64,000 bases of DNA from Kiritimatiellaceae bacterium (GTDB lineage Bacteria > Verrucomicrobiota > Kiritimatiellia > Kiritimatiellales > Tichowtungiaceae). How positions within the stretch are numbered: the stretch's first letter is position 1; each line of letters opens with the position of its first letter. Under the pieces are notes generated by a model, which saw only the letters and a list, made by a program, of their open reading frames with translations, did not search any database and was not told the origin of the DNA. A program made the position numbers and the translations under genes. The stretch covers positions 310,001 through 374,000 of the forward strand of contig JABFQY010000005.1 in assembly GCA_013141415.1 (NCBI GenBank). Reading direction: 5' to 3'. This document shows, piece after piece, positions 1 through 60,597 of this stretch.

Positions 1-1
1 G

Positions 2-748: not shown

Positions 749-769
749 CAGATTGAAAAAAGGATGAGC

Positions 770-1951: not shown

Positions 1952-1962
1952 AAAAGGAAGTC

Positions 1963-2796: not shown

Positions 2797-3950
2797 GTCG
2801 TACCTTTGTCGGCTTTGGGTTCGGGGCCATTCAATCAGGACTGTTCCTGTATGAGGCCTTCCGCTCGGGGAACTTCGACCGGCTGGTTGTGGCCGAAGTG
2901 GTTCCGGATGTCGTTGCGGCGGTGCGCCGCGCGGGCGGCTATACGCTCAATATCGCCACATCCGGCGGCATTGAGCAGCACCGCATCACGGGTGTTGAAA
3001 TCTATAATCCATCGGTTGAAGCCGATCGGGTTGCATTGATTGCCGCGCTGGCTGAAGCGCAGGAGATTGCCACCGCGCTGCCGAGCGTGGACTTCTTTGA
3101 GCGCGGCAACCCTTCGGTTGCGGCGCTGATGCGCGAAGCGTTTTCTCAAAGATCAGGAAATCCTGCGGTGGTTTATACCGGAGAAAATAACAACCACGCG
3201 GCGGAAATTCTGGAAGCGGCGGTTGGCCTTAACGGGCGGAAGCCAATCCAGTTTCTTAATACCGTGATCGGTAAAATGAGCGGTGTTGTAACCGATCCTC
3301 AACAGATTGCTTGCGACAAGCTGGCCCCGATGACTCCGGGTTCGAGCCGGGCCTTTCTGGTGGAGAAGTTTAACCGCATTCTGATTACGCAAATTACACT
3401 GCCTGAGTTTAAACGCGGGATTGATGTTTTTGAAGAGAAAGCAGATCTGTTTCCGTTTGAAGCGGCTAAACTGTACGGACACAACGCGACGCATGCGTTG
3501 CTTGGTTATTTGGCGAATGAGCGCGGCTGTATCTTTATGTCGGACGCTCCTGCCGATCTGACGGAATTTGCTCGTGCGGCGTTTCTGGAGGAATCCGGCG
3601 CGGCCCTGATCAAAAAATACGCCGGGATTGACCCGCTCTTTACACCGGACGGATTTAAAGGGTATGTCGATGACTTGATGGAACGTATGCTGAATCCTTA
3701 CCTGCGCGATCAGGTGGAGCGGGTGATTCGCGATCCGGTTCGTAAGCTGGGATGTGATGACCGGCTGATTGGAACCATGCGGCTTTGTCTGTCACAGGGC
3801 GTGATCCCTGAAAAATATGCGAATGGAGTTTGCTCCGCGTTGCGGTTTCTGTGGAACGGGCAACGGGATCTTTCTGGCGGATTTCCTTGGGAGGCAGACG
3901 GATTGAGCTGTGAAGAGAAGACTCAGATCCGGGCGCTGATAAAAATATAA
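2793..3950 (+). CDS. Mannitol dehydrogenase-family (polyol long-chain) oxidoreductase
   Basis: A 385-residue NAD(P)-dependent polyol dehydrogenase. The N-terminus has the dinucleotide-binding GFGFGAIQSG turn of mannitol-1-phosphate 5-dehydrogenases. The catalytic K-x4-N-x2-H signature is complete: K226, N231 and H234 within AKLYGHNATH. The family interconverts mannitol(-1-P), altronate or related polyols with the keto sugar, in the cytoplasm. The start codon overlaps the previous stop in an ATGA arrangement, indicating translational coupling with the isomerase-like protein. With the kinase and GH38 mannosidase this suggests channelling of mannose, fructose and mannitol. It is shorter than the ~450-aa mannitol 2-dehydrogenases and nearer to MtlD in length. 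Substrate is uncertain. Confidence 0.8.
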   Translation: MSRTFVGFGFGAIQSGLFLYEAFRSGNFDRLVVAEVVPDVVAAVRRAGGYTLNIATSGGIEQHRITGVEIYNPSVEADRVALIAALAEAQEIATALPSVDFFERGNPSVAALMREAFSQRSGNPAVVYTGENNNHAAEILEAAVGLNGRKPIQFLNTVIGKMSGVVTDPQQIACDKLAPMTPGSSRAFLVEKFNRILITQITLPEFKRGIDVFEEKADLFPFEAAKLYGHNATHALLGYLANERGCIFMSDAPADLTEFARAAFLEESGAALIKKYAGIDPLFTPDGFKGYVDDLMERMLNPYLRDQVERVIRDPVRKLGCDDRLIGTMRLCLSQGVIPEKYANGVCSALRFLWNGQRDLSGGFPWEADGLSCEEKTQIRALIKI

Positions 3951-3973
3951 ACCGAATAAAGTAAGGACGACCT

Positions 3974-5530
3974 ATGAAAACAGGGACTGCGCCTAAATTG
4001 ATATGGACACTTGCTGTATTGAGTGCCTTCACCTCATTTGCCGAGGTCAAGCCAGCTGGCATTTTTTCAGATTACGCGATTCTGCAGCAAGGCGAACCGG
4101 TTCGTATCTGGGGAACGGCGGCTGCCGGGGAGGCTGTCAAGGTGACGTTTGCGGAGCAGACTCTGGAGACAAAAGCCGATACAAATGGCGACTGGATGGT
4201 GACACTGAACAATCTGAAGGTTTGCGCCGAAGGGCGCTCGCTGATTTTTCAAGGTTCGGAAACTGCACAGCCGGTTGAATTGAAAGAGATTCTGGTCGGC
4301 GAGGTATGGATGGCTGGAGGTCAGTCCAATATGGAGTGGCCGATGAACAACTTTAAAAAAACAACCCAGCCGGATATTGCCAGTGCCAATGATCCGTTAT
4401 TGCGGATGGCTCACATCCCGCGTCTTGAATTTGCCGGACAGAATGACGATCGGCCCCAGTGGAAGAAAAGTACGTCGCAAAACGTAGCCGGATTTTCGGC
4501 GTGCGCTTATTATTTTGCAAAAAACCTGCGGAGCACATTGAATGTTCCGGTTGGCGTTGTCGTTTGCGCTGTCGGTGGAAGCCCGGCGGAAGCCTGGATG
4601 AGCCGAAAAACACTGGAAAGCAATGCAGACATCAAGAAGGTTCTCGATGCCTATGAAAAAATCTGCCGGAAAAACTTTTTAAACGAAGAGGATTGTTTAA
4701 AGCAGGGCGAGGAATACGAGCAGGCCAGAAAGGCGTGGTATATCAAGCACGCCGATAGCGAACCCCGTCCGATGCCGAAAATGGGCCCCCATCATTTTCA
4801 AAGACCTTACGGCCTGCACGACGCCATGCTTTCGCAAACCATTCCGTACACCGTTCGCGGCGTCATCTGGTATCAGGGGGAAAACAACTCCGCGTACGGA
4901 TTTCATTACCGCACGGTCTTTTCGGCGCTCATTAAAGAATGGCGGGAGGAATATCAGAATCCGGAGCTGCCGTTTCTTTTTGCCCAGCTGGCCACGTTCG
5001 GGCCTCCTTCGGACTGGACCGAATTGCGCGAATCTCAGAGCTGGGTTGAGGCGCATGTCAAAAATACCGGCATGGCGGTTCTCGTCGATGGCGGTGAAGA
5101 AAAAAATATTCATCCGCATTCCAAGGACAAGGCCGGCCTGCGCCTTTCGCTGTTGGCCCGCAATATGGTGTACGGCGAAAAAGATCTGGTTTGTCACGGG
5201 CCTCGGCTGAAAGAGGCTGTTCGAAAGGACGGGAGCGTGGAGCTGACCTTCCAAGACGCCGATTCCGGTTTGATTCTGAAGCCGGAAGCTGTCAGTGCGT
5301 TTGAAATATGCGGCAAAGATGGGAAGTATGTTCCGGCCAAAGCCGAACAGGCGGGCAATCGAATTATTATTTCCGCCGAAAGCGTTCCGGAACCGCAGTA
5401 TGTCAGGTACGGCTGGAAGCAATGGTTTGTCCCAACGCTGTTCAATGCTGAAGGTCTGCCCGCATCGCCTTTCCGCACCGACGACTTTCCGCCTGTCACA
5501 AAAGACCGCTATCTGCTCGATCGTTCGTAA
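3974..5530 (+). CDS. Secreted sialate O-acetylesterase-like SGNH esterase
   Basis: A 518-residue carbohydrate acetylesterase of the SASA (sialic acid 9-O-acetylesterase) family. A signal peptide occupies about residues 1-23. A beta-sandwich with GWxGxAxxGExVxV-type strands follows, then the SGNH domain: GQSNM with nucleophile Ser118, block GVIWYQGENN, and a D...NIHPHSK...G.RLS segment near residue 380 for the Asp/His pair. The family removes O-acetyl groups from polysaccharides; sialic acid is only the founding substrate. It lies 23 nt after the dehydrogenase gene and 27 nt before a sulfatase, so deacetylation and desulfation are probably co-expressed. Two further members lie at 19126 and 48221. 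The start has GTAAGGACG upstream. Confidence 0.88.
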   Translation: MKTGTAPKLIWTLAVLSAFTSFAEVKPAGIFSDYAILQQGEPVRIWGTAAAGEAVKVTFAEQTLETKADTNGDWMVTLNNLKVCAEGRSLIFQGSETAQPVELKEILVGEVWMAGGQSNMEWPMNNFKKTTQPDIASANDPLLRMAHIPRLEFAGQNDDRPQWKKSTSQNVAGFSACAYYFAKNLRSTLNVPVGVVVCAVGGSPAEAWMSRKTLESNADIKKVLDAYEKICRKNFLNEEDCLKQGEEYEQARKAWYIKHADSEPRPMPKMGPHHFQRPYGLHDAMLSQTIPYTVRGVIWYQGENNSAYGFHYRTVFSALIKEWREEYQNPELPFLFAQLATFGPPSDWTELRESQSWVEAHVKNTGMAVLVDGGEEKNIHPHSKDKAGLRLSLLARNMVYGEKDLVCHGPRLKEAVRKDGSVELTFQDADSGLILKPEAVSAFEICGKDGKYVPAKAEQAGNRIIISAESVPEPQYVRYGWKQWFVPTLFNAEGLPASPFRTDDFPPVTKDRYLLDRS

Positions 5531-5557: not shown

Positions 5558-7324
5558 ATGACCAAGGGGTTTGTATGGCTGAACAGTGTCCTTGCGGTTT
5601 GTGGAACGGTGTTCGGGGCAGCGCAGCCTCCCTCGCGGCAACCGAATGTGATTTTGATTCTTACCGATGACCAGGGATATGGGGATCTCGGCTGTCACGG
5701 CAATGCCGTGGTAAAAACACCTCATCTGGATCAATTCTATAAAGAAGCTGTTCGCTTTACTAATTTTCACGTGTCGCCCACCTGCGCGCCGACGCGTGCC
5801 GCGCTACTGACCGGGCGATATAACGATGATACCGGTGTGTGGCACACCATCAAAGGGCGCAGTCTTTTGCGAACCGATGAAAAAACACTCGGAGATATGT
5901 TCCATCAGGCTGGTTATGCAACTGGCATGTTCGGGAAATGGCATCTGGGGGATAATTACGAATATCTGCCGGAGCAACGCGGATTTGAAGAGGTTTGGCG
6001 GCACGGCGGCGGCGGAATAGGGCAGACTCCGGATTACTGGGGGAACGATTATTTTGACGACACGTATTGGGTTAATGGGAAGCTGGTTAAATTTAACGGG
6101 TTCTGTACTGAAGTCTGGTTTCGGGGCGCAAAACAGTTCATTGCAAAAGAGGTCGCGGCCAAACGACCGTTCTTCTGCTATCTGGCGCTGAATGCACCGC
6201 ACGCCCCGTATTACGCTCCCGAAAAATATAAACAGATGTATGAGAACAACGCCTATGGTGTTGATCCCGGATTTTTTGGGATGATCACTCATCTGGATGA
6301 GCAATTCGGGTTGCTTCGAACTGCGCTTAAGGAACTGGGTGTCGAAGACAATACGATTTTAATTTTCATGACCGATAACGGCACGTCGGCTGGTGTGGAG
6401 CTCGACGGAAAACACTGGAGCGATAGCTTTGTGGTTAAAGGCTTTAACGACGGGATGCGCGGTAAAAAAGGCTCGGCATATGAGGGTGGGCACCGGGTTC
6501 CGTTTTTTATCCGCTGGCCCGGCGGCGGAATTAGCGGCGGGCGCGATATCAACACACTTTCCGCCCACATCGACATTCTTCCAACGCTGGCGAATCTGTG
6601 TTCCGTTCCGCCGCCGAAGGGCCGTCCGTTGGACGGAACCAGTCTTGTGCCGCTGTTGCGCGGGGATGTCGCGGGGTGGCCGCAACGTACGATCTGCACG
6701 GACAGCCAGCGCGGCGAAAATCTGGTTAAATGGAAAGACAGCGTGGTTATGACAGAGCGCTGGCGGCTGGTTCGCGGTAACGAGCTCTATGAGATCAAAA
6801 ACGATCCGGAACAGCGGACGAATTTGGCGGGCGCCTGTTCGGAGATTGTCACGCCGCTACGTTCAGCTTATGAAAACTGGTGGCAGAAGGTTTCCGATCG
6901 GGAAGCGGTGGATTGTCCAATCTCGATTGGTAACACAAACGCTGGAACCGTTTTGTTGACGGCTCACGACTGGCATAGTCCGGATCAAGAAGCGATTACG
7001 CCTTGGGATCAAAAATTAATTTGCGAGGGGATGCAAACGAACGGGTTCTGGGCGATCCGTACAGAAGTTTCCGGGCAGTACCGGTTTACATTGCGGCGCT
7101 GGCCTGCCGAACGGGGCGGAAAAATTGAAGAAAACTTTTTTCCGGTCAAAAAAGCACGGATTCAAATCGGCGGGATTTCGGCCGATCAGCCCGTTGATCC
7201 CGGCGCGGAGTCTGTCGTATTTGAACTGCCTGTTCCCATTGGCGAAGCCGCCCTCCAAACATGGTTCATCGGCGACAATGAATCCTGCGGCGCATACTAT
7301 GTGGAAGTCGAAGGAATCCGTTGA
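5558..7324 (+). CDS. Secreted type I sulfatase (CAPTR motif) with C-terminal beta-domain
   Basis: A 588-residue S1-family sulfatase. Signal peptide about residues 1-21; metal-binding LTDDQGYGDLG at about 35-45; C76-A-P-T-R is the cysteine to be converted to formylglycine, followed by AALLTGR; FGKWHLG supplies the lysine/histidine pair; a later DNGTSAG segment holds the remaining metal and substrate residues. After the catalytic domain, roughly 140 residues (from about 450) form a beta-rich tail ending in a WFIGDNE/YVEVEGI strand pair, often seen in sulfatases annotated as N-sulfoglucosamine or arylsulfatase-like. The start at 5558 fits AAGGAG 7 nt upstream; the in-frame TTG at 5552 does not. 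It hydrolyses a sulfate ester of a polysaccharide or oligosaccharide; the position and sugar are not readable. Confidence 0.92.
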   Translation: MTKGFVWLNSVLAVCGTVFGAAQPPSRQPNVILILTDDQGYGDLGCHGNAVVKTPHLDQFYKEAVRFTNFHVSPTCAPTRAALLTGRYNDDTGVWHTIKGRSLLRTDEKTLGDMFHQAGYATGMFGKWHLGDNYEYLPEQRGFEEVWRHGGGGIGQTPDYWGNDYFDDTYWVNGKLVKFNGFCTEVWFRGAKQFIAKEVAAKRPFFCYLALNAPHAPYYAPEKYKQMYENNAYGVDPGFFGMITHLDEQFGLLRTALKELGVEDNTILIFMTDNGTSAGVELDGKHWSDSFVVKGFNDGMRGKKGSAYEGGHRVPFFIRWPGGGISGGRDINTLSAHIDILPTLANLCSVPPPKGRPLDGTSLVPLLRGDVAGWPQRTICTDSQRGENLVKWKDSVVMTERWRLVRGNELYEIKNDPEQRTNLAGACSEIVTPLRSAYENWWQKVSDREAVDCPISIGNTNAGTVLLTAHDWHSPDQEAITPWDQKLICEGMQTNGFWAIRTEVSGQYRFTLRRWPAERGGKIEENFFPVKKARIQIGGISADQPVDPGAESVVFELPVPIGEAALQTWFIGDNESCGAYYVEVEGIR

Positions 7325-7386
7325 TCCATCATATTTTTACTGGCTGCGGGGAGTTTATTTTTGAACGGAAACGGAAGGAACTGCCG

Positions 7387-8349
7387 ATGAACCGGTTATT
7401 TAAAGTGAAGACGTGGCTGGCTGCTATAGTTTTTACAAGCTGGATTTGGACGGATGCTTCTGCAGAGAATGGCCGTTCTGCTTCCGTGTTAAACGCTCCC
7501 GAGTTGAGAAAAACAGCAGCGGGAGCAGCGTATCAGTTTTATAAAGACATGAGTTATCCCGGAGCGGAGAGTGAGCAGAAGCTGGATCTTTACATTCCGG
7601 AAGGTGCGCAGGCCGGGTTGCGTCCGGCGGTGCTTGTGATTCATGGCGGAGGGTGGGCGCAAGGCGATAAAAACGACCCGAATCCGCGCGAGTTCTCCGC
7701 CTTTTTCGTGGATGAGGGCTATATTGCGGTCAGTATAAATTACACGCTGAATGTTTATGAAGGGGCTCTCTGGAAAAGCACACGGCTGAAAGCGTCCTGG
7801 CCTCAGAATATTTACGATTGCAAAAGTGCGTTGCGCTGGATGAAAAAACATGCGGCTGAACTTGGAATTGATCCGAATCGTATTGCTGTAGCGGGCGCTT
7901 CGGCCGGCGGTCATCTGGCCTTGCTGACCGGCCTCTCTGCCGGAAATAAAGAGCTGAACAGCGGGGGCTCTTTTTTGGATCAGGACAACTCGGTTCGCTG
8001 TATTATCAATTTTTACGGCATACCGGATGTCCGTCGATGGGGCGGTAACGTATTCATTAATGAAACAGAGAAGGATCATCCGGAAATCTGGGCGCTTGCT
8101 TCCCCGGTTGAACACCTTTCAAAAGAGTCTCCTCCGATCCTGACGATTCACGGAACAGCGGATGCTGTAGTAAAAATCGAACTGGCGGATGAATTTGACC
8201 GAATCCTGAAAGGCAAAGGCCTTCCGCACCAATATGCGGCCGTTACAAATGCAGTTCATGCTTTCGGGCTCAATCCTCCTCAGATGGATTTGCGGCCGGT
8301 AATCCGGCAGTTTTTAAACGATCATTTTTCCGCACCGTCCGGCAACTAA
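7387..8349 (+). CDS. Secreted alpha/beta-hydrolase esterase (BD-FAE-like)
   Basis: A 320-residue alpha/beta hydrolase with a signal peptide (cleavage near residue 26). The oxyanion segment VIHGGGWAQGD (around 85-95) and nucleophile elbow G-A-S172-A-G-G are clear. HGTADAVV gives the acid Asp region and NAVHAFG the catalytic His. This HGGGW/GxSxGG pattern is typical of carbohydrate or feruloyl/acetyl xylan esterases related to BD-FAE. AGGAA 7 nt before 7387 decides the start; the frame is open back to 7321 but without a good site. It is the last gene of the left co-directional run. A frameshifted copy of its codons 34-81 survives at 15557-15700. Acyl specificity is unknown. Confidence 0.85.
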   Translation: MNRLFKVKTWLAAIVFTSWIWTDASAENGRSASVLNAPELRKTAAGAAYQFYKDMSYPGAESEQKLDLYIPEGAQAGLRPAVLVIHGGGWAQGDKNDPNPREFSAFFVDEGYIAVSINYTLNVYEGALWKSTRLKASWPQNIYDCKSALRWMKKHAAELGIDPNRIAVAGASAGGHLALLTGLSAGNKELNSGGSFLDQDNSVRCIINFYGIPDVRRWGGNVFINETEKDHPEIWALASPVEHLSKESPPILTIHGTADAVVKIELADEFDRILKGKGLPHQYAAVTNAVHAFGLNPPQMDLRPVIRQFLNDHFSAPSGN

Positions 8350-8848
8350 AGCGGCATGTCCGGGTTTCCCCGCCGGATTATGCGGAGCTGGAAGAATTGC
8401 CGGTTGTTTTTCAAATTCTGGAAACATAAGGCGGCGCAGGCTTTTATCAAAACGTTGCAAAGCCGACCGAAGAGAATGAGGCTTCGCGCAGCGACAACAC
8501 CTCGCAACTTGTCGCGGTGAGGAATATTAATTGGAAGGCATATCCCGCGACTTGCCGCAACGGGGAACGGTTATGCCGTCTTCTTTCTCTGTCACCCATA
8601 CGGAGAGCACGGGTCAATCAATAAAACCTTTCCTGCATTTGTATACAGGGGAACCCTGTGCGGTTTTTTGACACATATAACAACTAATAAGATACATGCA
8701 AAGGATTGGTTGTTTTGTGGAGACTTGAGTAAATGCCGTCTTGAACTGGGTGGGGTTTTGTCCGGATGCCGCTGCAGAGCCCGAAAAAGATGATGCATAA
8801 AAATGAAGGTTAAGCCCGGGAACCCGGGGATCCTTATGGGAGTTTAAA
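8350..8848. other. Intergenic region with a short coding-like remnant and a shared regulatory element
   Basis: About 500 bp without a gene. Right after the esterase stop, positions 8352-8429 read as an open stretch of 25 residues ending in a stop and containing DYAELEELPVVFQ, which has coding character and could be the tail of a lost gene; support is weak. The right half carries copy A of the repeated upstream element (8650-8697), whose similarity to copy C continues loosely to about 8800. Nothing else is recognised. Confidence 0.4.
8650..8697 (+). promoter_or_regulatory. Repeated upstream element, copy A (before GH3 gene)
   Basis: One of three copies of a roughly 50-bp element (others 13272-13323 and 15716-15766). 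This copy begins GGAACCCTGTGC and ends CTAATAAGATACAT. It contains TTGACA (8668-8673), then 17 nt, then GATACA (8691-8696), so the block could itself be a sigma-70-like promoter; the other copies have TCGACA or CCGACA at the -35 position, which would suit an activator-dependent promoter. The GH3 start codon is about 150 bp downstream. Confidence 0.6.
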
Positions 8849-10474
8849 ATGAAAGAGGCTTTACCGTCGGCTGATCAGATTGCAATTGACCAAATGATCG
8901 CCGGCATGTCCATCGAAGAGAAAATCGGTCAGGTTTTTTGTATTCATTCCTGGAAAAAATCCCCGTCAGAACTGGCTGACATAGTCGGAAAATATTCGAT
9001 CGGCGGTCTGTTTTTCGGATACAAGGCGGTGCAGGAATGTCGCGATATCATGGATGCTGCGGCAAAAGTGAGCAAAATTCCGGTCATTGGAACGGCGGAT
9101 CTGGTCAACGGGGCCGGCTCCCGTATCTCCGGCGGAACATTGTTCCCTTGGCAAATGGCAATCGGCGCAGCCAACTCCGAAGAACTCGCTGAAAAAGTCG
9201 GGATGGCGACGGCAAAAGAAGGCCGGAATGCCGGCATTCACTGGACCTTCGGTCCGATTGTGGATCTTTCGTTAAACATACGTAATTCGATGATGCACAC
9301 CCGTACATACGGCGATGATCCGGCGCACATTACCCGTCTTGCAAAAGCATTTATCCGGGGCGTTCAGAAAGAAAATCTGATGGCAGCCTCCGCCAAGCAT
9401 TTCCCGGGCGACGGTGTGGATGAGTGGGACACGCATATCTGTCCTTCAGTGAACCTTTACGGGGAAGAACTGTGGTTCAAGACATTCGGTTCAATCTGGC
9501 AATCCGTTATCGATGCCGGTGTGTATGCCGTTATGATGGGGCATTTAGCGCTGCCTTGGATGGATGATCCGTATGATTACCGTGGCCCGCGCCCGGCCAC
9601 GCTATCCAAAAAGATTCAGATTGATCTGCTGCGTAAGCGTCTCGGGTTTAAAGGCACAGTGATTTCAGATGCGATTCCAATGGCCGGGTTTGTCGGATAT
9701 GAGTCGTTTGCAAAAGCGGTTCCGATGAACATTGAGACCGGATCCGACATGGTGCTCTGGGCTGAGGCGGAACGGGATTTTCCTCACATGCTGCGGGCGC
9801 TGGAAACGGGCGCTCTGACCGAAGAGCGGCTCAATACTGCGGTCGGTAACGTGCTGGGTCTGAAAATGAAACTCAATCTTTTCAAGGAGGATGTTCGTCC
9901 TGAAGTGACTCCGGAAGACAAGGCACAGTATGCGTCTTGGGCGGAGGAGATCGGTCGCAAGAGTGTCACTGTTATCAAAGATGCAACGGGTGCGCTTCCG
10001 GTGAAAAACCTGAAACCCGGATCCAGGGTGCTGACGATCACCTGCTATTTTGAAAATGACACGCGCGGGTTCATACAGGAGCTGGAAGTCGTCGACGAGG
10101 AACTGCGTAAGCGCGGGTTTATTGTGGATCACCTGAGAAACCCATCGTGGGAGAATGGGTTGAAGAATGCCGACGACTATGACGCCATCTTTGTGAACCT
10201 CCATATTGTTGCACGTTACGGCAGTACCCGGTTGCTGGCTGGCGTAGCCGATGTCTTTTGGACCGGCTTCTGGCACGATCGGGAAAACGTGATCTTCACC
10301 TCGTTCGGGGATCCCTACAAACTGGCGGAGATTCCGTTTGTGCCGAACTACATCAATTGCTACAGCAATACGCCTGCATCTCAGAGGGAGGCCGTACGAG
10401 TCTGGATGGGCGAGTCTCCCGGAAACGGACATGTGCCGACTTCTCTTGAGGGATTTTACGAAAGAACCGTTTGA
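8849..10474 (+). CDS. Intracellular GH3 glycosidase (beta-N-acetylhexosaminidase type)
   Basis: A 541-residue GH3 enzyme. The TIM barrel carries GGLFFGYKA, the KHFPGDG segment (K183-H184) and D194-T-H196, the Asp-His dyad used as acid/base by NagZ-type GH3 members. The nucleophile Asp274 lies in TVISDAIPMAG. A second domain of about 150 residues follows, ending near 541. There is no signal peptide, so it should act in the cytoplasm on imported oligosaccharides. Start supported by GGGAG upstream. It is followed by a broken HAD gene and an intracellular sulfatase. The D-x-H dyad points to beta-N-acetylglucosaminidase or a phosphorylase-like variant, but the exact sugar is inferred. Its promoter region carries copy A of the shared element. 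Confidence 0.85.
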   Translation: MKEALPSADQIAIDQMIAGMSIEEKIGQVFCIHSWKKSPSELADIVGKYSIGGLFFGYKAVQECRDIMDAAAKVSKIPVIGTADLVNGAGSRISGGTLFPWQMAIGAANSEELAEKVGMATAKEGRNAGIHWTFGPIVDLSLNIRNSMMHTRTYGDDPAHITRLAKAFIRGVQKENLMAASAKHFPGDGVDEWDTHICPSVNLYGEELWFKTFGSIWQSVIDAGVYAVMMGHLALPWMDDPYDYRGPRPATLSKKIQIDLLRKRLGFKGTVISDAIPMAGFVGYESFAKAVPMNIETGSDMVLWAEAERDFPHMLRALETGALTEERLNTAVGNVLGLKMKLNLFKEDVRPEVTPEDKAQYASWAEEIGRKSVTVIKDATGALPVKNLKPGSRVLTITCYFENDTRGFIQELEVVDEELRKRGFIVDHLRNPSWENGLKNADDYDAIFVNLHIVARYGSTRLLAGVADVFWTGFWHDRENVIFTSFGDPYKLAEIPFVPNYINCYSNTPASQREAVRVWMGESPGNGHVPTSLEGFYERTV

Positions 10475-10478
10475 GGGA

Positions 10479-10562
10479 ATGGGTGTGAATATCAAAGCGG
10501 TTATTTTTGATCTCGGCGGCGTACTCCTGAGAACCGATGAACATTATTATGAAGAAATATAA
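10479..10562 (+). pseudogene. N-terminal remnant of a HAD-superfamily hydrolase
   Basis: ATG at 10479 with GAGGG upstream opens a 27-residue frame that stops at 10560-10562. It reads KAVIFDLGGVLLRTDEHYY, an excellent match to the first strand and motif I of HAD phosphatases (beta-phosphoglucomutase and relatives), and then ends. A whole HAD protein needs about 200 residues. The 3' end overlaps the start of the sulfatase gene in another frame. The simplest reading is a deletion that removed the rest of the HAD gene and joined its first codons to the sulfatase. Confidence 0.6.
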
Positions 10563-12018
10563 CATTGTCATCATTAACCCGGATCAGATGCGTTGGGATT
10601 ATATGACGCCCAACGGCCATCCTTTTATTGGGACGGAACATCTCAGCCGTCTGGCGGCCATGGGAACCAACTTTCGTCAGGCCTTTTGCTCCTGCCCGAT
10701 GTGCGGCCCGAGTCGCACATCAGCGGTTACCGGTCGCTATCCATCGGAACACGGGGTTCGCAATTACGTGGGGCGGATGAATCCAGCCCATCCAAACCTG
10801 TTTGACGAACTGAAAAAGGCGGGATATCACCGCGCTTTGTTCGGCAAGGATCATATTACGTTCAGCAATGCAATCGGCGTACATTATGACGAAGGGGAAG
10901 ATACTTGCATCGGGAATATGGATGAACATCCTGACTACCGGTACAGTTGGAGCGCCGGGCCGCTCGATCCCGCCAGTCCATGGAATCTGACGGAACGGCT
11001 GACAACCGCCGGACTGGACTATATCACTCGGCGCAGTAAAACGGATCAGCCGTTTTTTGTGACACTCAACTATCAGGATCCGCATCCCTATTTCACAGCT
11101 CCGGAACCCTATGCCTCTTTGTTTTCTCCTGACCAATTTGAACTTCCGGAGAATTTCCGAAGGGAGCCGGTCGCCGGAGAGCCCCGCCGTCTGGAAATAT
11201 GGCGGACTCACTCCCGCTCGGGAGAGGCGACGGAAGAGGATTTCAAGAAAGCCATGGCCATGTATTGCGGCCAGATCCGTTATGTGGACGATCAGGTTGG
11301 ACGGGTTTTGGATAAGCTGGAAGAGTTGAATCTTCTGGAGAACACCATTGTTCTTTTCTGGAGCGATCACGGCGAACTTCTGGGGGATTACGGGGTGACC
11401 CATAAGCTGCCGGTTTTTTACGATTCTCTGGTTCGTATTCCGATGGTTCTGTGGGATCCAAGCGGACGGATCGCTCCGGGAACCAATACCGATTTAGTGG
11501 AAGCGATGGATATTTTTGCTTCCGTTCTGGATATTTGCCAGGTGCATCAGCCGGAAGGCAGCCGTGCGCGGAGCCTGACCGGAAAAGAGTACCGCCCCCG
11601 TGCAGACGTTTTCGCGGAGGGCGGACTTCTTATAGCGCCTGTGGAGCAGGCAATTCCGGAGCTCAACCTGCGGGCGCCGTATCAGCCCAGTCAGTTCGGC
11701 CCGGGAGCTATGCTGCGGACGGGCAAATGGAAGTTGTGTGCGCACAGTTTTGACTGCTGGGAGTTGTATGATCTTGAAGAGGATCCTCATGAATGCCGCA
11801 ATGTATTCAATGAGCCGGTCAATGCGTCTGTCGTGCGTGAACTGACCGTTCGACTGGTTCAGCGCATGATGTGCTGCGGACAGTCGCCGGAAGACCTTTG
11901 CCGTCCTGTGATCACGGGTATCGGAAGCGACGGAATCCCGCTGTGGGATGATGAGTGTACACGGATTATGAATTGCGCCGGCATATTGCCCGGGGACGTT
12001 GCGGAACGTGAATTCTGA
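10549..12018 (+). CDS. Type I sulfatase without signal peptide (CGPSR motif)
   Basis: A 489-residue S1 sulfatase. C52-G-P-S-R is the formylglycine site, followed by TSAVTGRYPSEHG. The N-terminal metal-ligand segment is DQMRWDYM rather than the usual DDxGYGD, a pattern of the choline-sulfatase/iduronate-sulfatase-like branch. FGKDHITF replaces the common GKWHLG. SDHGELLGDYG gives the distal Asp/His ligands. No signal peptide is visible, so it should desulfate imported oligosaccharides in the cytoplasm together with the preceding GH3. ATG 10537 is also in frame; 10549 places the start directly before the first strand. No strong Shine-Dalgarno serves either, so translation may be coupled to the upstream HAD remnant. 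Confidence 0.9.
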   Translation: MKKYNIVIINPDQMRWDYMTPNGHPFIGTEHLSRLAAMGTNFRQAFCSCPMCGPSRTSAVTGRYPSEHGVRNYVGRMNPAHPNLFDELKKAGYHRALFGKDHITFSNAIGVHYDEGEDTCIGNMDEHPDYRYSWSAGPLDPASPWNLTERLTTAGLDYITRRSKTDQPFFVTLNYQDPHPYFTAPEPYASLFSPDQFELPENFRREPVAGEPRRLEIWRTHSRSGEATEEDFKKAMAMYCGQIRYVDDQVGRVLDKLEELNLLENTIVLFWSDHGELLGDYGVTHKLPVFYDSLVRIPMVLWDPSGRIAPGTNTDLVEAMDIFASVLDICQVHQPEGSRARSLTGKEYRPRADVFAEGGLLIAPVEQAIPELNLRAPYQPSQFGPGAMLRTGKWKLCAHSFDCWELYDLEEDPHECRNVFNEPVNASVVRELTVRLVQRMMCCGQSPEDLCRPVITGIGSDGIPLWDDECTRIMNCAGILPGDVAEREF

Positions 12019-12100
12019 TCGCTGACCCGGAGTCTTACTGATGGATAAAAATATAAATTGGTCTCCTCATGACGCGAGGTGAAGGACATAATGACCGGCC

Positions 12101-13237
12101 ATGGAAAAACACCATAACATTTTGTTCCTTTCTCAGTATTATACGGAGAATCTTCATCGTGGAGTGGCCCAGTATGCTCTCGAGGCAGATTGGCATTTGA
12201 ATGCCGCCTCAGCCCGGGGATATCCGGTTCCTGAATTCAAGTGGAGCGGTATTATCAGTTCGCTTTTTCCAGGCAATAGATTTCTGGAAAATTTTCTAAA
12301 AAACGGCTCTGCGCCGATGGTCAGCCTGACGAAAACAATCCATTGCCCTTGTGTAATTTCCGATCATGAAGCGGTTGGTCGATGCGGGGCGGAACATTTT
12401 ATTGAACAGGGGTATCAGAACTTCGCCTTTTACTTTAAAGAGTCCGATTGGCATGAAAAAACACGCTTCCACGCTTTTAAAAGCAAATTGAACTCCACTC
12501 TCCACCGTTGCTATCCGATTAACTATACGCCAACACCTCGCGCCCGGACTCAATCTGTTGAAGTTCGTATACGCATGTTGCGCCGGGTATTGAGCCGAAT
12601 CCCCAAACCGGTCGCGTTAATGGTGCCATTCGATTGTCTGGCTGTGGAGGCCCTGGACGTTTGTCAGGATATGGGGCTGCATGTGCCTAAAGAGGTCGGC
12701 ATTCTGGGGGTGAATAACGATGCACTGATCTGTGGTTTTACCCGGCCCGCTCTTTCCAGTGTTGATGATGATGAATATCGCATCGGCTATGAAGGCGCGG
12801 CGTTGCTTGACCGGCTGATGCGTGGCGCCCGGCTTCCGAAGAGACCTGTTTTAATTCAGCCGAAAGGCGTTGTGGCCCGTAAAAGCACAGACCTGCTTGA
12901 TCTTACGGAAGTTCCAGACCGGTATGTTGCGAAAGCAGTTCGTTTTATTACGGAACATTATGCGGAACCGATTACAACAAATGAAGTGGCGCTTGCAGCC
13001 GGCGTTTCCAAAGGCATGCTGCAGAGTCGGTTTACGGAGCACATTGGCTGTACCATTCACGAGCAGATTGAAAAAAAGCGGCTCAATCATGCTAAACGGT
13101 TGCTGACCGAGACGGATTTAAAAACATCCTCTATTGCAATCGAAAGCGGCTTTGGATCCCGCGAGCGGTTCAGCAAACGGTTTAAACAGATTACCGGTGT
13201 AACGCCGATGGAATACCGGAGTTCAAATACCCGCTGA
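12101..13237 (+). CDS. XylR-type regulator: LacI-like sensor domain plus AraC HTH
   Basis: A 378-residue transcription factor. Residues 1-270 follow the type I periplasmic-binding fold used by LacI/XylR sensors (NILFLSQYYTENLHRGVAQYA at the start; PFDCLAVEALDVCQDMGLHVP; VGILGVNND). Residues about 275-375 are a two-HTH AraC domain (PITTNEVALAAGVSKGMLQSRF, then SSIAIESGFGSRERFSKRFKQITGVTPMEYR). This order matches E. coli XylR, an activator responding to a sugar. There is no N-terminal LacI HTH. In-frame stops just upstream force the start to 12101. The three copies of the ~50-bp element flank this gene, making it the natural candidate to bind them; that link is inference. GAAGGA at 12081-12086 is spaced better for an out-of-frame ATG at 12091. 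Confidence 0.88.
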   Translation: MEKHHNILFLSQYYTENLHRGVAQYALEADWHLNAASARGYPVPEFKWSGIISSLFPGNRFLENFLKNGSAPMVSLTKTIHCPCVISDHEAVGRCGAEHFIEQGYQNFAFYFKESDWHEKTRFHAFKSKLNSTLHRCYPINYTPTPRARTQSVEVRIRMLRRVLSRIPKPVALMVPFDCLAVEALDVCQDMGLHVPKEVGILGVNNDALICGFTRPALSSVDDDEYRIGYEGAALLDRLMRGARLPKRPVLIQPKGVVARKSTDLLDLTEVPDRYVAKAVRFITEHYAEPITTNEVALAAGVSKGMLQSRFTEHIGCTIHEQIEKKRLNHAKRLLTETDLKTSSIAIESGFGSRERFSKRFKQITGVTPMEYRSSNTR

Positions 13238-13271
13238 AACGAACGTGCGAGTGGTTCGTCCGGCCGCGCAT

Positions 13272-13323
13272 GGAAAGCCGGTACGACATATTTTCGACAC
13301 ACACAACAGGTAATAAGATACAT
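13272..13323 (+). promoter_or_regulatory. Repeated upstream element, copy B (before GH141-like gene)
   Basis: Begins GGAAAGCCGGTACGACA and ends ACAGGTAATAAGATACAT. It matches copy C almost base for base over the last 30 nt (CGACACACACAACAGG plus TAATAAGATACAT) and copy A with scattered changes. Similarity to copy C continues a little downstream (ATGCTGGGTGTTT against ATGTTGGCTGTTT). It lies 62 bp before the start of the 13385 gene and 35 bp after the regulator gene. Confidence 0.65.
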
Positions 13324-13384
13324 CGGCATGCTGGGTGTTTTTAACGGGATCAAATAACTTTAAACGAAAGTAGAGGAGATCAAT

Positions 13385-15523
13385 ATGTTACATGCTCAAG
13401 CGCTTCGAGATTGCCGGATTGTATCGCTTTGTTTTGTCCTGATGGGAACAACAGGATACGGTGCAGATTTTTACGTTTCGCCCTCCGGGGATGATGCTGG
13501 CGCGGGAACGCTGGCGCAGCCTTTTGCCAGCATTCAGCGGGCGCAAGCGGCAGTGCGGGATCTGAAAGCAAAAAAACCGACCGGCGAAATTACAATTGAA
13601 CTGCGCGGCGGATTATACGAGATGGACAAACCGGTGGAGTTTCGTCCGGAAGATTCCGGACGTGCGGATCAGCCGGTTATTTATCGGGCTTTTCCAGGTG
13701 AAGAGCCGATTTTTTCCGGAGCTCGGCCCATTCGCGGCTGGCGAAAGGCGGATATGCCGGTTGAAGGCGTCAATCGGCTGGCGGCCGGAAAATTATGGAC
13801 GACGACGGTGGAAAAGGGCTGGTCGTTTCCTTATTTGTATATTCACGGAAAGGCGTACTACCGTTCAGTTTGGCCTAATACGGATTTGTGGAAAGAGTGG
13901 CCATTAGCCCGCTGTGAAGGAGAGTTGCTGACGCTGCCCGCAGAGTTCCATTTTCGCCTGCCAAATCGCCGCGACGTCCAAATCAATTACATGCCGACAC
14001 CTCACTCTAAATGGATCAACCTGTTTAACACAGTGACCGAGATGAAAGCCGGGGTGATTCATCTGCAAAAACCGGTTTTGCAAATCGGCATTTTAAAGCC
14101 AACCGAGCAGGTACCGTTTCGTATCGAAAACACGCTCGAAGGAATTGACCGGCCCGGTGAGTGGTGCGTCAACACAGAAACCGGGGTGATCTATTTGTGG
14201 CCTGCGGAGAACACCGCTTCAAACTTCACGGAACAGGTTTGTGCTCGGCAACTGGATAAGGCTTTTATTCTGTCCGGAGATTCGTCCGCCGGACGGAAGG
14301 TGGAGTACCTCACGGTAGAGGGAATTTCGATTCAATATGTCAATACAGGGATTTCACTCACGGCAGCAAAAAACTGCACGATTCGCGCGTGCCGGATCGA
14401 GTCGGTGGATGCGATAGGCGTTTCGGCTGCTGATATCCAGAATGTGGCCATTGAACACTGTCTGATTGCGAACTGCGGAAAGTCGGGGCTGTCCATCGCG
14501 GTGACAGACAAAGAACCTGAACTTGCCTTGCAGAACACAAAGAACCGGATTGAGCATAACGAGCTTTATAATTGCGGACAAATGCATTGGCAGAGCTCGG
14601 CGATCAGTGTGATGACCGACTGCAGCCTTATCCGTTACAACTATATTCATGACGTGCCGTATGCCGGGATTACCGTGAATGGACAGCGGTTTTATATTCT
14701 TAAGACCGAGCTGGCAAACGCCGGCAAGACGACGGAGGGTATTGCTGAATCGGATATGACCATTTACGGACTGAAACGATATGTGCCGGGTCACAACCGG
14801 ATCGAAAATAATGTCGTGCATGATGCCATGATGCAGCTGGATGACGGCGGAGCGATTTACTGCCATGCCTCGCACCATAATCTGCTCAAAAATAATATTG
14901 TGTACCGCCTGCACGGAAGCTATGGGATCGGTCTTTATTTCGATGACGATGAGATGTTTTCCACCATGGAAAATAATCTGATCTTCACTCGGGACGGAGA
15001 TCCGGTGCCTCGTTTCGCGATACATGTTCATGCCAATGCCTGCAACTATGTCTTTCGCAATATTGTGGCGTTTGGTGCAAAGCCGATTTCCACACCTCGC
15101 AGCTATGGGGGCCATGTAATTGCTCAGAACGTGTTCTTACTGAAGGCGGATGGCCTGGATCAAGGTGATTTATCCCGGAACAGCGGACGGTATAAGGATT
15201 TAAAATGGGATGCGGGCCAGCCGGTCATGGACAACAATCTTTATTGGAGCAGTGATGACGGAAAGCAGGCATCAGCCTATTTAAGCGGGCGGCAGGGGAA
15301 GGGGTTCGATACACATTCGACGGTTGCCGATCCGGGGTTTTCCGAAGCTCGGAAAGGCCGATTCGGTTTCGATACCACATCACCCGTCTGGCAGATGGGG
15401 ATTGAACCGATTGATACATCCGAAGTCGGGATTTTCAGCGACTGCAAGGCGGTAGACAAAAAAACGCGCGGCGGGAATGTCGATTTCTTCATGAAACCCG
15501 TTGCCGACGGAGAGAAGCGGTAA
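13385..15523 (+). CDS. Secreted right-handed beta-helix protein, GH141-like
   Basis: A 712-residue secreted protein with a signal peptide (cleavage near residue 27). The mature start (ADFYVSPSGDDAGAGT, PFASIQRAQAAVRDLK, IELRGGLYEM, FRPEDSG, VIYRAFPGEEPIFSGARPI) is the characteristic opening of family GH141 and related beta-helix carbohydrate-active proteins. Coil repeats follow (IEHNELYNCG, IRYNYIHDVPYAGI, IENNVVHDAM, DDGGAIY, LLKNNIVYRLHG). GH141 contains an alpha-L-fucosidase and a xylanase, so fucose-containing polymers are possible, not proven. AGGAG lies 8 nt before the start. The gene stands alone after the regulator and carries copy B of the shared element upstream. Confidence 0.75.
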   Translation: MLHAQALRDCRIVSLCFVLMGTTGYGADFYVSPSGDDAGAGTLAQPFASIQRAQAAVRDLKAKKPTGEITIELRGGLYEMDKPVEFRPEDSGRADQPVIYRAFPGEEPIFSGARPIRGWRKADMPVEGVNRLAAGKLWTTTVEKGWSFPYLYIHGKAYYRSVWPNTDLWKEWPLARCEGELLTLPAEFHFRLPNRRDVQINYMPTPHSKWINLFNTVTEMKAGVIHLQKPVLQIGILKPTEQVPFRIENTLEGIDRPGEWCVNTETGVIYLWPAENTASNFTEQVCARQLDKAFILSGDSSAGRKVEYLTVEGISIQYVNTGISLTAAKNCTIRACRIESVDAIGVSAADIQNVAIEHCLIANCGKSGLSIAVTDKEPELALQNTKNRIEHNELYNCGQMHWQSSAISVMTDCSLIRYNYIHDVPYAGITVNGQRFYILKTELANAGKTTEGIAESDMTIYGLKRYVPGHNRIENNVVHDAMMQLDDGGAIYCHASHHNLLKNNIVYRLHGSYGIGLYFDDDEMFSTMENNLIFTRDGDPVPRFAIHVHANACNYVFRNIVAFGAKPISTPRSYGGHVIAQNVFLLKADGLDQGDLSRNSGRYKDLKWDAGQPVMDNNLYWSSDDGKQASAYLSGRQGKGFDTHSTVADPGFSEARKGRFGFDTTSPVWQMGIEPIDTSEVGIFSDCKAVDKKTRGGNVDFFMKPVADGEKR

Positions 15524-15556
15524 TCTTGTGTGGTGCAAAATGACGCCAGGCCTGAT

Positions 15557-15700
15557 CTGTGCTCAATACTCCTGAATTGAAAAACAGAGGCGGGCGCAGC
15601 GTATCGCTTTTATAGAGACATCAGTTATCCCGGCGCAGCGAGCGATCAGAAAGTGGATGTTTGCGTTCAGGAAAAAGCGCAGTGCGGCTTGCGTGCAACG
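15557..15700 (+). pseudogene. Frameshifted fragment of an alpha/beta esterase (paralogue of 7387-8349)
   Basis: This stretch aligns with 7485-7630, codons about 34-81 of the upstream esterase. With a 2-nt deletion near 15582 the translation gives GAAYRFYRDISYPGA and then SDQKVDV, against GAAYQFYKDMSYPGA and SEQKLDL in the intact gene. No start, GxSxG or C-terminus remains. It directly precedes copy C of the regulatory element, in the same order as the intact esterase precedes copy A. Confidence 0.75.
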
Positions 15701-15715
15701 TCTGGACTTTCTTTG

Positions 15716-15766
15716 GGAATCCCGTGCAACAAATTTCCGACACACACAACAGGTAATAAGATACAT
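15716..15766 (+). promoter_or_regulatory. Repeated upstream element, copy C (before 15882 gene)
   Basis: Begins GGAATCCCGTGCAACAAATT and ends CAGGTAATAAGATACAT. Its last 30 nt are nearly identical to copy B. Downstream similarity to copy A persists for about 100 bp (TTGGCTGTTT, then TAAATGC, then GAGGTTTTACCCGGA), so copies A and C derive from one longer ancestral segment. The start codon of the next gene is 116 bp away. Confidence 0.65.
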
Positions 15767-15881
15767 ATGAAATGTTGGCTGTTTCACACAGGCCTGATAA
15801 ATGCACATTCAGTTCGGGCGAGGTTTTACCCGGAGCCCGCAAGCTGTGACGCAGAATAAATTGTTAACGTGGAGGTGTGTT

Positions 15882-18800
15882 ATGGAAAGAGCCAAAAGGT
15901 CATCGCCGGTCATACGTACCATACTGTTGATGCAGTTATTCGGGGGTGCATTGACCAATGCGTATCCCGCACTGTTTGTGCTTTTGTCCACAGGCGTATT
16001 GACCAATGCATATCCCGCTATACGGGAGGTCGGCCCGACTTTCACGTATACCACGATCACCAGTGCAGTGGCTGCGGCTAATGCCAATGACGTGATTCTC
16101 ATCCATGAGGGCGTATATCCGGAAACCGTGACGGTGACAGGAAAGACCAATCTTTTCATTAAGGCCGCGCCGGGAGAGCATGTTCTCATCACCGGTTGCA
16201 ACACGTTCACGAATTGGCTGGTTGATACTGCAAACAGCAATATCTACACATCAAGGTTGAATAGCATTGATGTAAATTTGGATCATCCGGATGTTTTCAT
16301 TAATGGAAAGTTAATGGCCCCGGCAGCATGGCCGAATCTTAACCCCGAGGATTTTCACTACAACTGGTGGGGTACAAACTCATATGCTTTTAACGGCAAT
16401 AACGGCACAGCGACGGTAGGTATCGTCACGGGCAGTGCCGGCAATTACTGGGCTGGCGGCACCTACCTTGGGCTCAACGGGATGGCCTGGGTATCCATTG
16501 AGGGAAAGATCGTCGCTTCCACCATTTCGGGACTGACCTGCAGTAATCTTACAACGACCTACTGGAAGGATCCCGCTAACACGAAAATGGTTGGCTTGGG
16601 GCAAGGAATGATCCTGTTTCATACCAACGCATTGGATTCGGCCGGTGAATGGTATTGGGATGCTGGATCTAAAAAGCTTAGCCTGTATGGCGGCAATCCA
16701 GGCACCAATGTTCAGGTGCGCGTCCGCGCATTGGGCATGAAACTGGACAAATGTAAGAATGTCACTGTGCAGGGTCTGAACTTTCGCGCAGCGAGCGTAA
16801 AACTGGTTGGCACGACCAACTGCAGTCTGCTGGATTGTTCGGTTCTGTACGGAACATCTTTCTATGACCGAACCAACCAGACCGAAAATGCGGGCGAGTA
16901 TTCCATTTCTACAGACAACGCGTGTATCAGTAACAAGGTGACGGGTTGCTATGTGGCACATGGCTGGGGCGGCGGTATTTTGGTAGCTGGGGGCGGCATG
17001 CTCGTCGAAGATTGTGTCATTGAGGATTTCGACTGGAATGGGGGATGGCAGGCGGGCATATTTTTCAACAGCGGTTCTACGAATTGCACGGTCAAACGCA
17101 ATACGATCAGCAAAACGGGAAGGAGCGCCATTTCGGGAGTCCCATCAGACAGCCTCATACGATACAACCGGCTTAGTGACACCATGATTCTCAGTCGTGA
17201 TGGCGGCGCGATGTACCTGAAAGAGTCCACTGGCGGCTATGGCCGATTTCCCGCCGACGTCGCATACAATTGGATTGAGCACTGTTACGATTTCATTAAT
17301 CGCCGCCACGGTGTTGTGAGTTATAACGTTGCGACGGGACTCTACAGTGATAACGGTTCTGACGCGTTCAGATTTCACCACAACGTGATTTGGAGGACGG
17401 ATGAAGGGTTGAGGCTTAACGGACAGCCGGGTCTCGATTCCGTTACAAATGCCCGAGTTTATAACAATACCATCTGGGACATATCGGGGTTTCCCATGGA
17501 TGGTCTTTCCACAGATTGCACGCTGAGCATTAAGACCTACAACAATTTAGCCATGACAAATCACTGGGTGGGCGACGATATCAGAAACAATATGACGAAC
17601 ACTGCGGCAAATCTTTTCGTCGATTCAACCCCTGACGAATTGATCGACTTCCGGCTCAAGGCCGGCTCGGTGGCAATCAATTTTGGTACCGTCGCAAACG
17701 GCATTCCGGCAACAGATGAATATCAAGGGACAAACCCCGAGGCAGGAGCCTATGAGTATAGTTCCGGCAACCTCATGGACAAATGGGAGGCGGGCGCAAA
17801 CAGCCGTTATGTCGCCATTGACGAATTTGAGACCGGCGGCATCTCAGGGGGTGGAGGCTGGGTCAGCAGCTGGACGCTGACAGGACAGGCTTTCATTACC
17901 AACATCGCCGGACGCACAGGTAATTACGGCCTGATGTTGCGCGGATCGGCTGGAAGCGATTCTGCTGCGCGGACGCTTAGTCTAAAAAACCTGATGGTTC
18001 CCTCCCTGACGTTCTGGTGGAAAGCAACCGGGTTCGACGGTGCGGGCGAAAAGGTGACCGTAAAAATTATCGACGGGACGGTTACCAATACGGTTAAAAC
18101 CATCACAGGAAAAATGGCGGATGGGTACTGGCACTTCGCCACGATCGATCTGACACCCTTCCATTTTACCGGTGCCAGCCAGTCTTTGATTTTTGATGCC
18201 GCAGGCCTTAGCGGTACAAGCGATACCCTCCGAATGGATGAGCTGACCATCAATGAGTACGGAGCCTGTCCGACGGCATGGTGGCGCATGACGGGCACAG
18301 AGAACACGGCGATCAGCTCGGTGGGTAACTATGGAAATAATAAATCAATCGGCTCGGCTTTCGCCGGCACTGGTACGCCGCGTTACGGATATGATGTTCC
18401 GGATAACAGGAATATAAATGAACCGCTGAGCGGAGTAAATTATACGAATATCTCCTGCTTTGGTAATGCCGTATCCAACAGCCTTGTGGTAAGCAATTGC
18501 ACGGTATTCCTTAGCCGCGAATTCACTATAGAGTGTTTTGTCAAGCTGACCACTAATGCCGCATTTGGCTGGGGCGGAAACGCTATCGTTTCCAAAACAA
18601 ATACCAGCTCGACCGCCTCATGGGCGTTGCTGGTGTATGGAGGAGCAGGCATCAACAACGGATGCCTGTACAGCCAGCTCAATGACGGTGTAAATAATTA
18701 CTGCTCGGTTATCAGCACAAATCCAATAACCGACGACCAGTGGCACCACATCGCCATGACGGTCAAAGGGAATGATTCGTCGCCGACTGTAAATACCTAT

Positions 18801-18983
18801 CTTGACGGCGAATGTTTTTCTTCGAAATCGATTCCCGCAAGCTCGGTGGCCGGAATTGTAGAAACTTCTGGGAATCTGGTTATTGGTAATATGACAGCGG
18901 CTGGTTTGGTCAGTGCTGAAATTGATGAGGTGCGCTATACCGCCCGGGCGTTGGATGTAACCGGATTTCTTCTCAATTACTAG
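15882..18983 (+). CDS. Large secreted beta-helix protein with LamG-type C-terminus
   Basis: A 1033-residue secreted protein. The leader is followed by a DUF1565-like start (FTYTTITSAVAAANANDVILIHEGVYPETVTV), then beta-helix coils with RYNRLSDTMILSRDGGAMYL. From about residue 640 there is a MAM/CBM-like sandwich (FETGGISGGGGW, SLTFWWKATGFDGAGEKV). From about 795 a LamG/concanavalin-like domain follows (AWWRMTGTENT, FTIECFVKL, DDQWHHIAMTVKG). GGAGGTG upstream fixes the start; the frame is open back to 15801 without a site. The leader holds an odd in-frame duplication: LTNAYPA occurs twice 20 residues apart, each after a hydrophobic stretch. It is probably a polysaccharide-binding or -cleaving enzyme; no catalytic residues can be assigned. 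Confidence 0.8.
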   Translation: MERAKRSSPVIRTILLMQLFGGALTNAYPALFVLLSTGVLTNAYPAIREVGPTFTYTTITSAVAAANANDVILIHEGVYPETVTVTGKTNLFIKAAPGEHVLITGCNTFTNWLVDTANSNIYTSRLNSIDVNLDHPDVFINGKLMAPAAWPNLNPEDFHYNWWGTNSYAFNGNNGTATVGIVTGSAGNYWAGGTYLGLNGMAWVSIEGKIVASTISGLTCSNLTTTYWKDPANTKMVGLGQGMILFHTNALDSAGEWYWDAGSKKLSLYGGNPGTNVQVRVRALGMKLDKCKNVTVQGLNFRAASVKLVGTTNCSLLDCSVLYGTSFYDRTNQTENAGEYSISTDNACISNKVTGCYVAHGWGGGILVAGGGMLVEDCVIEDFDWNGGWQAGIFFNSGSTNCTVKRNTISKTGRSAISGVPSDSLIRYNRLSDTMILSRDGGAMYLKESTGGYGRFPADVAYNWIEHCYDFINRRHGVVSYNVATGLYSDNGSDAFRFHHNVIWRTDEGLRLNGQPGLDSVTNARVYNNTIWDISGFPMDGLSTDCTLSIKTYNNLAMTNHWVGDDIRNNMTNTAANLFVDSTPDELIDFRLKAGSVAINFGTVANGIPATDEYQGTNPEAGAYEYSSGNLMDKWEAGANSRYVAIDEFETGGISGGGGWVSSWTLTGQAFITNIAGRTGNYGLMLRGSAGSDSAARTLSLKNLMVPSLTFWWKATGFDGAGEKVTVKIIDGTVTNTVKTITGKMADGYWHFATIDLTPFHFTGASQSLIFDAAGLSGTSDTLRMDELTINEYGACPTAWWRMTGTENTAISSVGNYGNNKSIGSAFAGTGTPRYGYDVPDNRNINEPLSGVNYTNISCFGNAVSNSLVVSNCTVFLSREFTIECFVKLTTNAAFGWGGNAIVSKTNTSSTASWALLVYGGAGINNGCLYSQLNDGVNNYCSVISTNPITDDQWHHIAMTVKGNDSSPTVNTYLDGECFSSKSIPASSVAGIVETSGNLVIGNMTAAGLVSAEIDEVRYTARALDVTGFLLNY

Positions 18984-19068
18984 TGCGATATCCCGGAGAT
19001 TGTTTTCAGCGCATGGAATGCGTCCATGAAGGAATGATTCGGTGGATAGCGTAGTCGGGGAGATGGCG

Positions 19069-19102
19069 GCACCACAAAGTGCGGCCTTCTTTACTGTGGT
19101 GC
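19069..19102. repeat. Inverted repeat between large secreted genes
   Basis: GCACCACA (19069-19076) pairs with TGTGGTGC (19095-19102), leaving an 18-nt loop, 24 nt before the next start codon. It is followed by an A-run rather than a T-run, so it is not a forward terminator; it could affect translation of the downstream gene or be an operator. Confidence 0.35.
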
Positions 19103-19125
19103 AAAAAATCGAAAGTGATCTACAG

Positions 19126-37811: not shown

Positions 37812-37858
37812 TTTATAAACCTGGACGAGAAAACGGAAGCCAGAGAAAGGATCAGGAA

Positions 37859-38923: not shown

Positions 38924-38991
38924 TTTTCAAAGAGACCGTTTAGATGTCTGTGGCGCCAGTCGATGGCTGGCGCTGATTTGGGAGTCGAAGC

Positions 38992-40683: not shown

Positions 40684-40713
40684 ACAGCAATCTGTTCGTG
40701 CGAAGCGGAGAAA

Positions 40714-52327: not shown

Positions 52328-52423
52328 ATGGTTTAATCGTTGGAACCACATTACAGACAATAGATTACATCACAATAGACAGGGAGAACGTAGTCCGCCA
52401 AAGAAACATTTTTAAAAAACCAG

Positions 52424-58834: not shown

Positions 58835-58847
58835 AGGAACCGAAGGC

Positions 58848-60557: not shown

Positions 60558-60597
60558 ATTGCGGGGATCAGGGAAGTAAAACAACAGGAGGTCTATG

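Follow-up and report, generated by a model that had tools for sequence, protein, structure and literature searches.

A short repeated element around a XylR-type regulator gene of a Kiritimatiellaceae bacterium is probably the private operator of that regulator

How are the genes around a XylR-type regulator controlled in a bacterium that probably degrades polysaccharides? The question is raised by a 64,000-nt stretch of the genome of a Kiritimatiellaceae bacterium (GCA_013141415.1, contig JABFQY010000005.1, positions 310,001 to 374,000), called the window here, to which coordinates refer unless otherwise indicated. A preliminary description reported a repeated element before three carbohydrate-degradation genes of the window and took it for the regulator's binding site and core promoter in one. 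Direct reading of the sequence bore out the three copies. In an ungapped alignment, the part truly shared by all of them is a 28-nt core, GACACANNNAACANNTAATAAGATACAT, with the layout GACACA-NNN-AACA-NN-TAATAAGATACAT. Another block described as common, CGACACACACAACAGG, is present in B and C only, and copy A reads TGACACATATAACAAC.

8670-8697, + strand: 28-nt core of copy A, putative half-sites GACACA (8670-8675) and GATACA (8691-8696)
13296-13323, + strand: 28-nt core of copy B, putative half-sites GACACA (13296-13301) and GATACA (13317-13322)
15739-15766, + strand: 28-nt core of copy C, putative half-sites GACACA (15739-15744) and GATACA (15760-15765)

All three cores have the orientation of the gene that follows. 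Copies B and C had been called nearly identical over 30 nt, and they agree at 29 of these positions; A agrees with either at 24 of 28. The distance from core to start codon is 151 nt (A, GH3 gene), 61 nt (B, GH141-like gene) and 115 nt (C, beta-helix/LamG gene), in line with the 60-150 bp reported before. These distances were measured to the likeliest start codons, and a plausible ribosome-binding site is present at each. For copy C, the mechanical open reading frame opens at 15801, and the start at 15882, behind a GGAGG ribosome-binding site, was chosen.

8849-10474, + strand: GH3-family enzyme, downstream of copy A; the closest solved structure is the beta-glucoside phosphorylase BglX (5VQD)
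10537-12018, + strand: sulfatase, 62 nt after the GH3 gene
12101-13237, + strand: XylR-type regulator of 378 aa, proposed binder of the element
13385-15523, + strand: beta-helix protein, downstream of copy B; related to 9RX2 and to the GH141 enzyme BT_1002 (5MQP)
15882-18983, + strand: beta-helix/LamG protein, downstream of copy C
19042-22062, + strand: SASA-type esterase, 58 nt after the beta-helix/LamG gene

The genes fall into three units, namely GH3-sulfatase-regulator (A), the GH141-like gene (B) and beta-helix/LamG-SASA esterase (C). Judging from the spacing, the sulfatase and the regulator probably belong to the transcript of copy A, and the esterase possibly to that of copy C. Further sulfatases lie in the window at 36078-42336 and 57347-63981, some of them with EF-hand tails, and a GH141-type/LamG gene is found at 61171-63981 (- strand). 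These additional genes indicate a large region for the degradation of sulfated polysaccharides. Together with the PEP-CTERM content, the sulfatases would fit a polysaccharide degrader of the PVC group.

The gene between copies A and B was described as a regulator with a LacI-type sensor and an AraC-type DNA-binding domain, and its product is indeed XylR-like over the full length. Pfam searches identified an N-terminal LacI/GalR-type sensor (Peripla_BP_3, residues 97-263, E 8.9e-31) and a C-terminal AraC-type double helix-turn-helix (HTH_18, residues 297-374, E 1.8e-21). The protein is homologous from end to end to the solved XylR of E. coli (PDB 4FE4, residues 11-377 to 15-388, E 1.5e-35). It is one of two XylR-type gene products of the genome, and Pfam scans found no second regulator among the main open reading frames of the window. 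Among 42 other genomes of the order, no close orthologue suitable for footprinting was found, the best-scoring relatives being about 37% identical. A single-sequence structure model of the regulator was discarded (pLDDT 35.6).

Genome-wide searches were pattern searches with up to 3 mismatches, and the matrix scan had a smaller scope than the genome. Within 3 mismatches, the window holds the three core matches and no more, and 100 dinucleotide shuffles of the window gave none. The whole genome (2.22 Mb, 95.5% complete) contains exactly three copies at the same threshold, all within 7.1 kb around the regulator gene, and the exact 13-mer TAATAAGATACAT occurs three times in the genome, solely at this locus. 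The same pattern search found no core in 42 other genomes of the order. Many genome copies unrelated to carbohydrate genes would have spoken against the proposed regulator site; each of the three copies stands before a carbohydrate or sulfatase unit. Since the core is found before three neighbouring genes and nowhere else in the genome, it is most likely a private docking site of the regulator. We assign a probability of roughly 0.7 to the reading that the element is the private operator of the regulator encoded at 12101-13237, through which it would activate the three units. The binding site proposed earlier thus gains support from the arrangement of the locus. The matrix scan also gave a weak match at 52343-52370, 166 nt before a gene for a PATR/PEP-CTERM secreted protein. 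With 16.4 bits against 43-46 for the three copies, and a score reached in 1 of 60 Markov sequences, it is near the chance limit and was not counted as a fourth site.

The extent of the element had also been drawn to include an upstream GGAA-CC-GT-C motif, and this part did not hold up well. The distance from the GGAA-CC-GT block to the core, counted directly, is 20, 24 and 23 nt in A, B and C. In copy A, GGAACC..GT forms the loop and arm of a hairpin, ACAGGG-GAA-CCCTGT, followed by TTTTTT (8644-8660), and the T-run passes directly into GACACA.

8644-8669, + strand: terminator-like hairpin with T-run, adjoining copy A; predicted fold -10.3 kcal/mol

Transcription of the operon upstream, with an esterase gene at 7321-8349, probably stops at this hairpin. 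At the block in B and C, the hairpins predicted are weak. The three-way similarity is a little beyond chance: it is reached in 0.6% of shuffles and in 1.5% of random segment triples. Because of the variable spacing and the terminator in A, the block was rejected as a shared regulatory box.

The element could in principle have another origin or another binding partner. If the element were a remnant of local duplication, or a small mobile repeat, and had no regulatory function, this would account for the 29 of 30 identical positions in B and C; the two genes behind these copies are also distantly similar. Nevertheless, the similarity ends at the element. The flanks show no in-register alignment beyond about -5 to +45, and the two genes are only about 24% identical over 225 residues, so that the near identity of B and C points to conservation at the level of the site and not to a recent duplication of the region. 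Moreover, copy A precedes an unrelated GH3 gene, and there are just three copies, all directly before genes and in the same orientation. This origin is considered highly improbable. The element might also be bound by a different regulator that happens to control these genes, for example a response regulator, an alternative sigma factor or another protein of the AraC or LacI type. The genome contains about ten AraC-type domains, and LacI/AraC-type matches lie just past the end of the window (G000:C5:375009-376083). Even so, all copies surround the 12101 gene and, at up to 3 mismatches, the genome has none elsewhere; an alternative sigma factor should have a larger set of targets, and the only other full XylR-type gene of the genome has a different element of its own. 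Binding by such a protein is thus quite unlikely.

The same holds, with slightly less force, for the proposal that the regulator site doubles as a sigma-70 core promoter, in which TTGACA/TCGACA/CCGACA would be the -35 and GATACA the -10, separated by a 17-nt spacer. Copy A does carry a perfect TTGACA 17 nt from GATACA, the position and orientation of the element before genes suit a promoter, and activator sites can overlap core promoters. The hexamers are poor, however. The matches to the -35 consensus fall from 6/6 in A to 5/6 in B and 4/6 in C, and GATACA matches TATAAT at 3 of 6 positions and ends in A instead of the final T. The spacer shows the same degree of conservation as the hexamers (13 of 17 positions between A and B or C, all 17 between B and C), unlike a sigma-70 spacer. 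Sigma-70 promoters would have hexamers conserved above the spacer and a -10 with A2 and T6, which is not the pattern of the element. Furthermore, the TT of TTGACA in copy A lies inside the T-run of the terminator, which accounts for the TC of B and the CC of C at these positions, and a promoter scan did not report the hexamer pair. The assignment of the two hexamers as -35 and -10 is therefore probably wrong. A direct repeat, GACACA/GATACA, with a spacing of 21 bp is the better reading of them.

In all three copies, GACACA and GATACA are exactly 21 bp apart, and 21 is the top-scoring of the shifts 8-33. Taken as a pre-specified spacing, it has a shuffle fraction of 0.035 (column shuffles); over the full set of shifts, the best score is reached in 58% of the shuffles. 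In pairwise comparison, shift 21 ties with other shifts. The pattern GAYACA-N15-GAYACA occurs three times in the genome, solely here, and the reversed-pattern control gave one match. In the genomes of relatives it is no commoner than the reversed control, so this code is not clade-wide. The GAYACA pair may represent the half-site spacing of AraC/XylR proteins in the form of an imperfect repeat, with modest statistics. The claim of a tandem repeat draws on what is already expected of AraC-type proteins and on parallels elsewhere, not on this sequence alone.

Such parallels were sought in E. coli, in this genome and in the order. When the E. coli xylA/xylF region was analysed by the same shift test, 21 was the best shift on the xylA side, untied (TGTGAATTATCTCAA/TGTGAAATAACATAA), and ranked third on the xylF side. 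The second XylR-type gene of the genome (locus L085, G000:C3:436000-455000) is accompanied by its own, different repeated element with the core ATTAAA..ATACG.

Locus L085, near 755 (- strand), near 9055 (- strand) and 10279-10315 (+ strand): repeated elements, one of which contains a clean direct repeat at 21 bp

In L085, AATACCGAAACCATTAAACCA|AATACGGAAACCA precedes a GH78-type gene; its two units, 21 bp apart, are identical at 14 of 16 positions. Related copies stand before a GH65 gene and one further gene. A pattern made from these elements matched no other place in the genome, that is, it is private to that locus. In a congeneric genome (L086, G008), GACATC/GATATC are found at 21 bp before sulfatase and GH42 genes, beside a XylR-type gene. 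At another locus (L079, G036), units resembling TTCCAANNNTTGGAA recur at 21 bp; they are palindromic and may be LacI-type sites. A further locus (L127, G009) has TGCGTA repeats at 22 bp. Counting that of the genome's second XylR, the 21-bp spacing appears from the sequences to recur at two or three further XylR-type loci of the order.

A survey of 80 XylR-type loci yielded about five with a multi-copy element of this kind, one of them at 22 bp. Repeated upstream pairs were found in 8 of the 80 loci and in 3 of 40 random loci, which is not clearly above random, and the support from the parallels is hence qualitative. Only the internal 21/22-bp repeat sets apart some of the eight pair-bearing XylR loci. 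An apparent enrichment of 21-bp spacing in the non-coding DNA of XylR loci (count 7 at 21) stems partly from tandem 7-mers and palindromes and was not used as evidence. In one control locus of a congeneric genome (L184, G009:C1:100000-117000), the regions upstream of the open reading frames 1-817 (-) and 1116-4046 (-) share 50 identical bases, probably the result of a recent duplication. Palindromes resembling TTCCAANNNTTGGAA, in some cases as pairs at 21-22 bp, precede genes near XylR-type regulators in relatives (L079, 2666-2703 and 4098-4134; L087, 4999-5036; L210). They are possibly operators of the LacI-type or XylR-type family.

Downstream of the core, all three copies carry a block T(T/G)GG-N2-GTTT at an unchanging distance, 36-45 nt after the core start. 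Of the 42 columns 3' of the core, 10 are identical in all copies in fixed register (shuffle fraction 0.0004) and cluster at T-GG..GTTT, as compared with 4 of 42 columns on the 5' side. Activation by AraC-type proteins would place both the -35 of a class II promoter and the outer contact made at the second half-site here.

8706-8715, + strand: downstream block of copy A, TTGGTTGTTT, candidate outer half-site contact or -35
13332-13341, + strand: downstream block of copy B, TGGGTGTTTT, candidate -35 region
15775-15784, + strand: downstream block of copy C, TTGGCTGTTT, candidate -35 region
8730-8735, + strand: candidate -10 of copy A, TAAATG

The promoter thus probably lies just downstream of the core. 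Weak -10 candidates of the sequence TAAATG follow the block at 17-18 nt in A and C (17 nt in C), and B has no clear one. These promoter candidates match the consensus poorly, worst in B. The leaders of A and C (8730-8780 and 15797-15845) also share AATGC and, about 25 nt on, GGTTTT(G/A)NCCGGA, a stretch that is absent from B and is possibly a leader structure.

Taken as the regulator's operator, the element suggests the following mode of action. Each core would offer two directly repeated half-sites, GAYACA with flanking bases, at 21 bp. This spacing equals two helical turns, which would let a regulator dimer place its two AraC-type DNA-binding domains one behind the other on the same face of the DNA. 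The dimer, when its LacI-like domain holds a sugar ligand, would activate the weak promoter directly downstream. It would touch or overlap the -35 at the conserved T-GG..GTTT block (class II activation) and recruit the polymerase. The GH3-sulfatase-regulator unit, the GH141-like gene and the LamG/esterase unit would be switched on jointly. As the regulator gene follows the GH3 and sulfatase genes with gaps of 62 and 82 nt, the regulator would raise its own level in a positive feedback loop.

Comparable systems are well known. In the I1-I2 site of araBAD, AraC recognizes two direct half-sites 21 bp apart, next to the promoter -35. The putative half-site pair of the core resembles this site in spacing, and differs from it in half-site sequence; AraC itself has a cupin sensor in place of the LacI-type sensor of the 12101 protein. 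E. coli XylR has the same two-domain layout over the full length (4FE4/4FE7), and on its xylA side the shift test gives a tandem direct repeat at 21 bp. The half-site sequence is different, and the E. coli targets are xylose isomerase and transport, whereas polysaccharide and sulfatase units are concerned here. A close precedent is XylRA of Vibrio, a LacI-AraC hybrid shown by gel shift (EMSA) to bind motifs of two direct repeats before several operons of one xylan locus (PMC12125979). Deletion and partial complementation showed that XylRA is needed for growth on xylan and xylose (PMC12125979). The likeness lies in the hybrid regulator and in sites with two direct repeats, putative in the present case, that precede several operons of a single polysaccharide locus. 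In contrast, the XylRA effector is xylose and its sites are AT-rich and XylR-like, while the half-site here is GAYACA. The proposed local regulon of the XylR kind is ordinary but well delimited, and its control principle is already known.

A pattern of private elements was seen for both XylR-type genes of the genome and for two or three others of the order. It is tempting to generalize that each XylR-type regulator of the lineage has its own unrelated, locus-private tandem operator before each neighbouring carbohydrate or sulfatase unit, that many such modules arose independently, and that helix-turn-helix domains and half-sites co-evolve fast. This idea is tentative, and we lean somewhat against it. 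Publications on cultured Kiritimatiellales (PMC10880615, PMC6388578) make no mention of AraC or LacI regulators or promoters. If the operator reading is true, it would provide a concrete operator for a XylR-type regulator, a kind of which sulfatase-rich polysaccharide degraders have many. It would also suggest which neighbouring genes act on one substrate, and the element could provide a sugar-inducible promoter.
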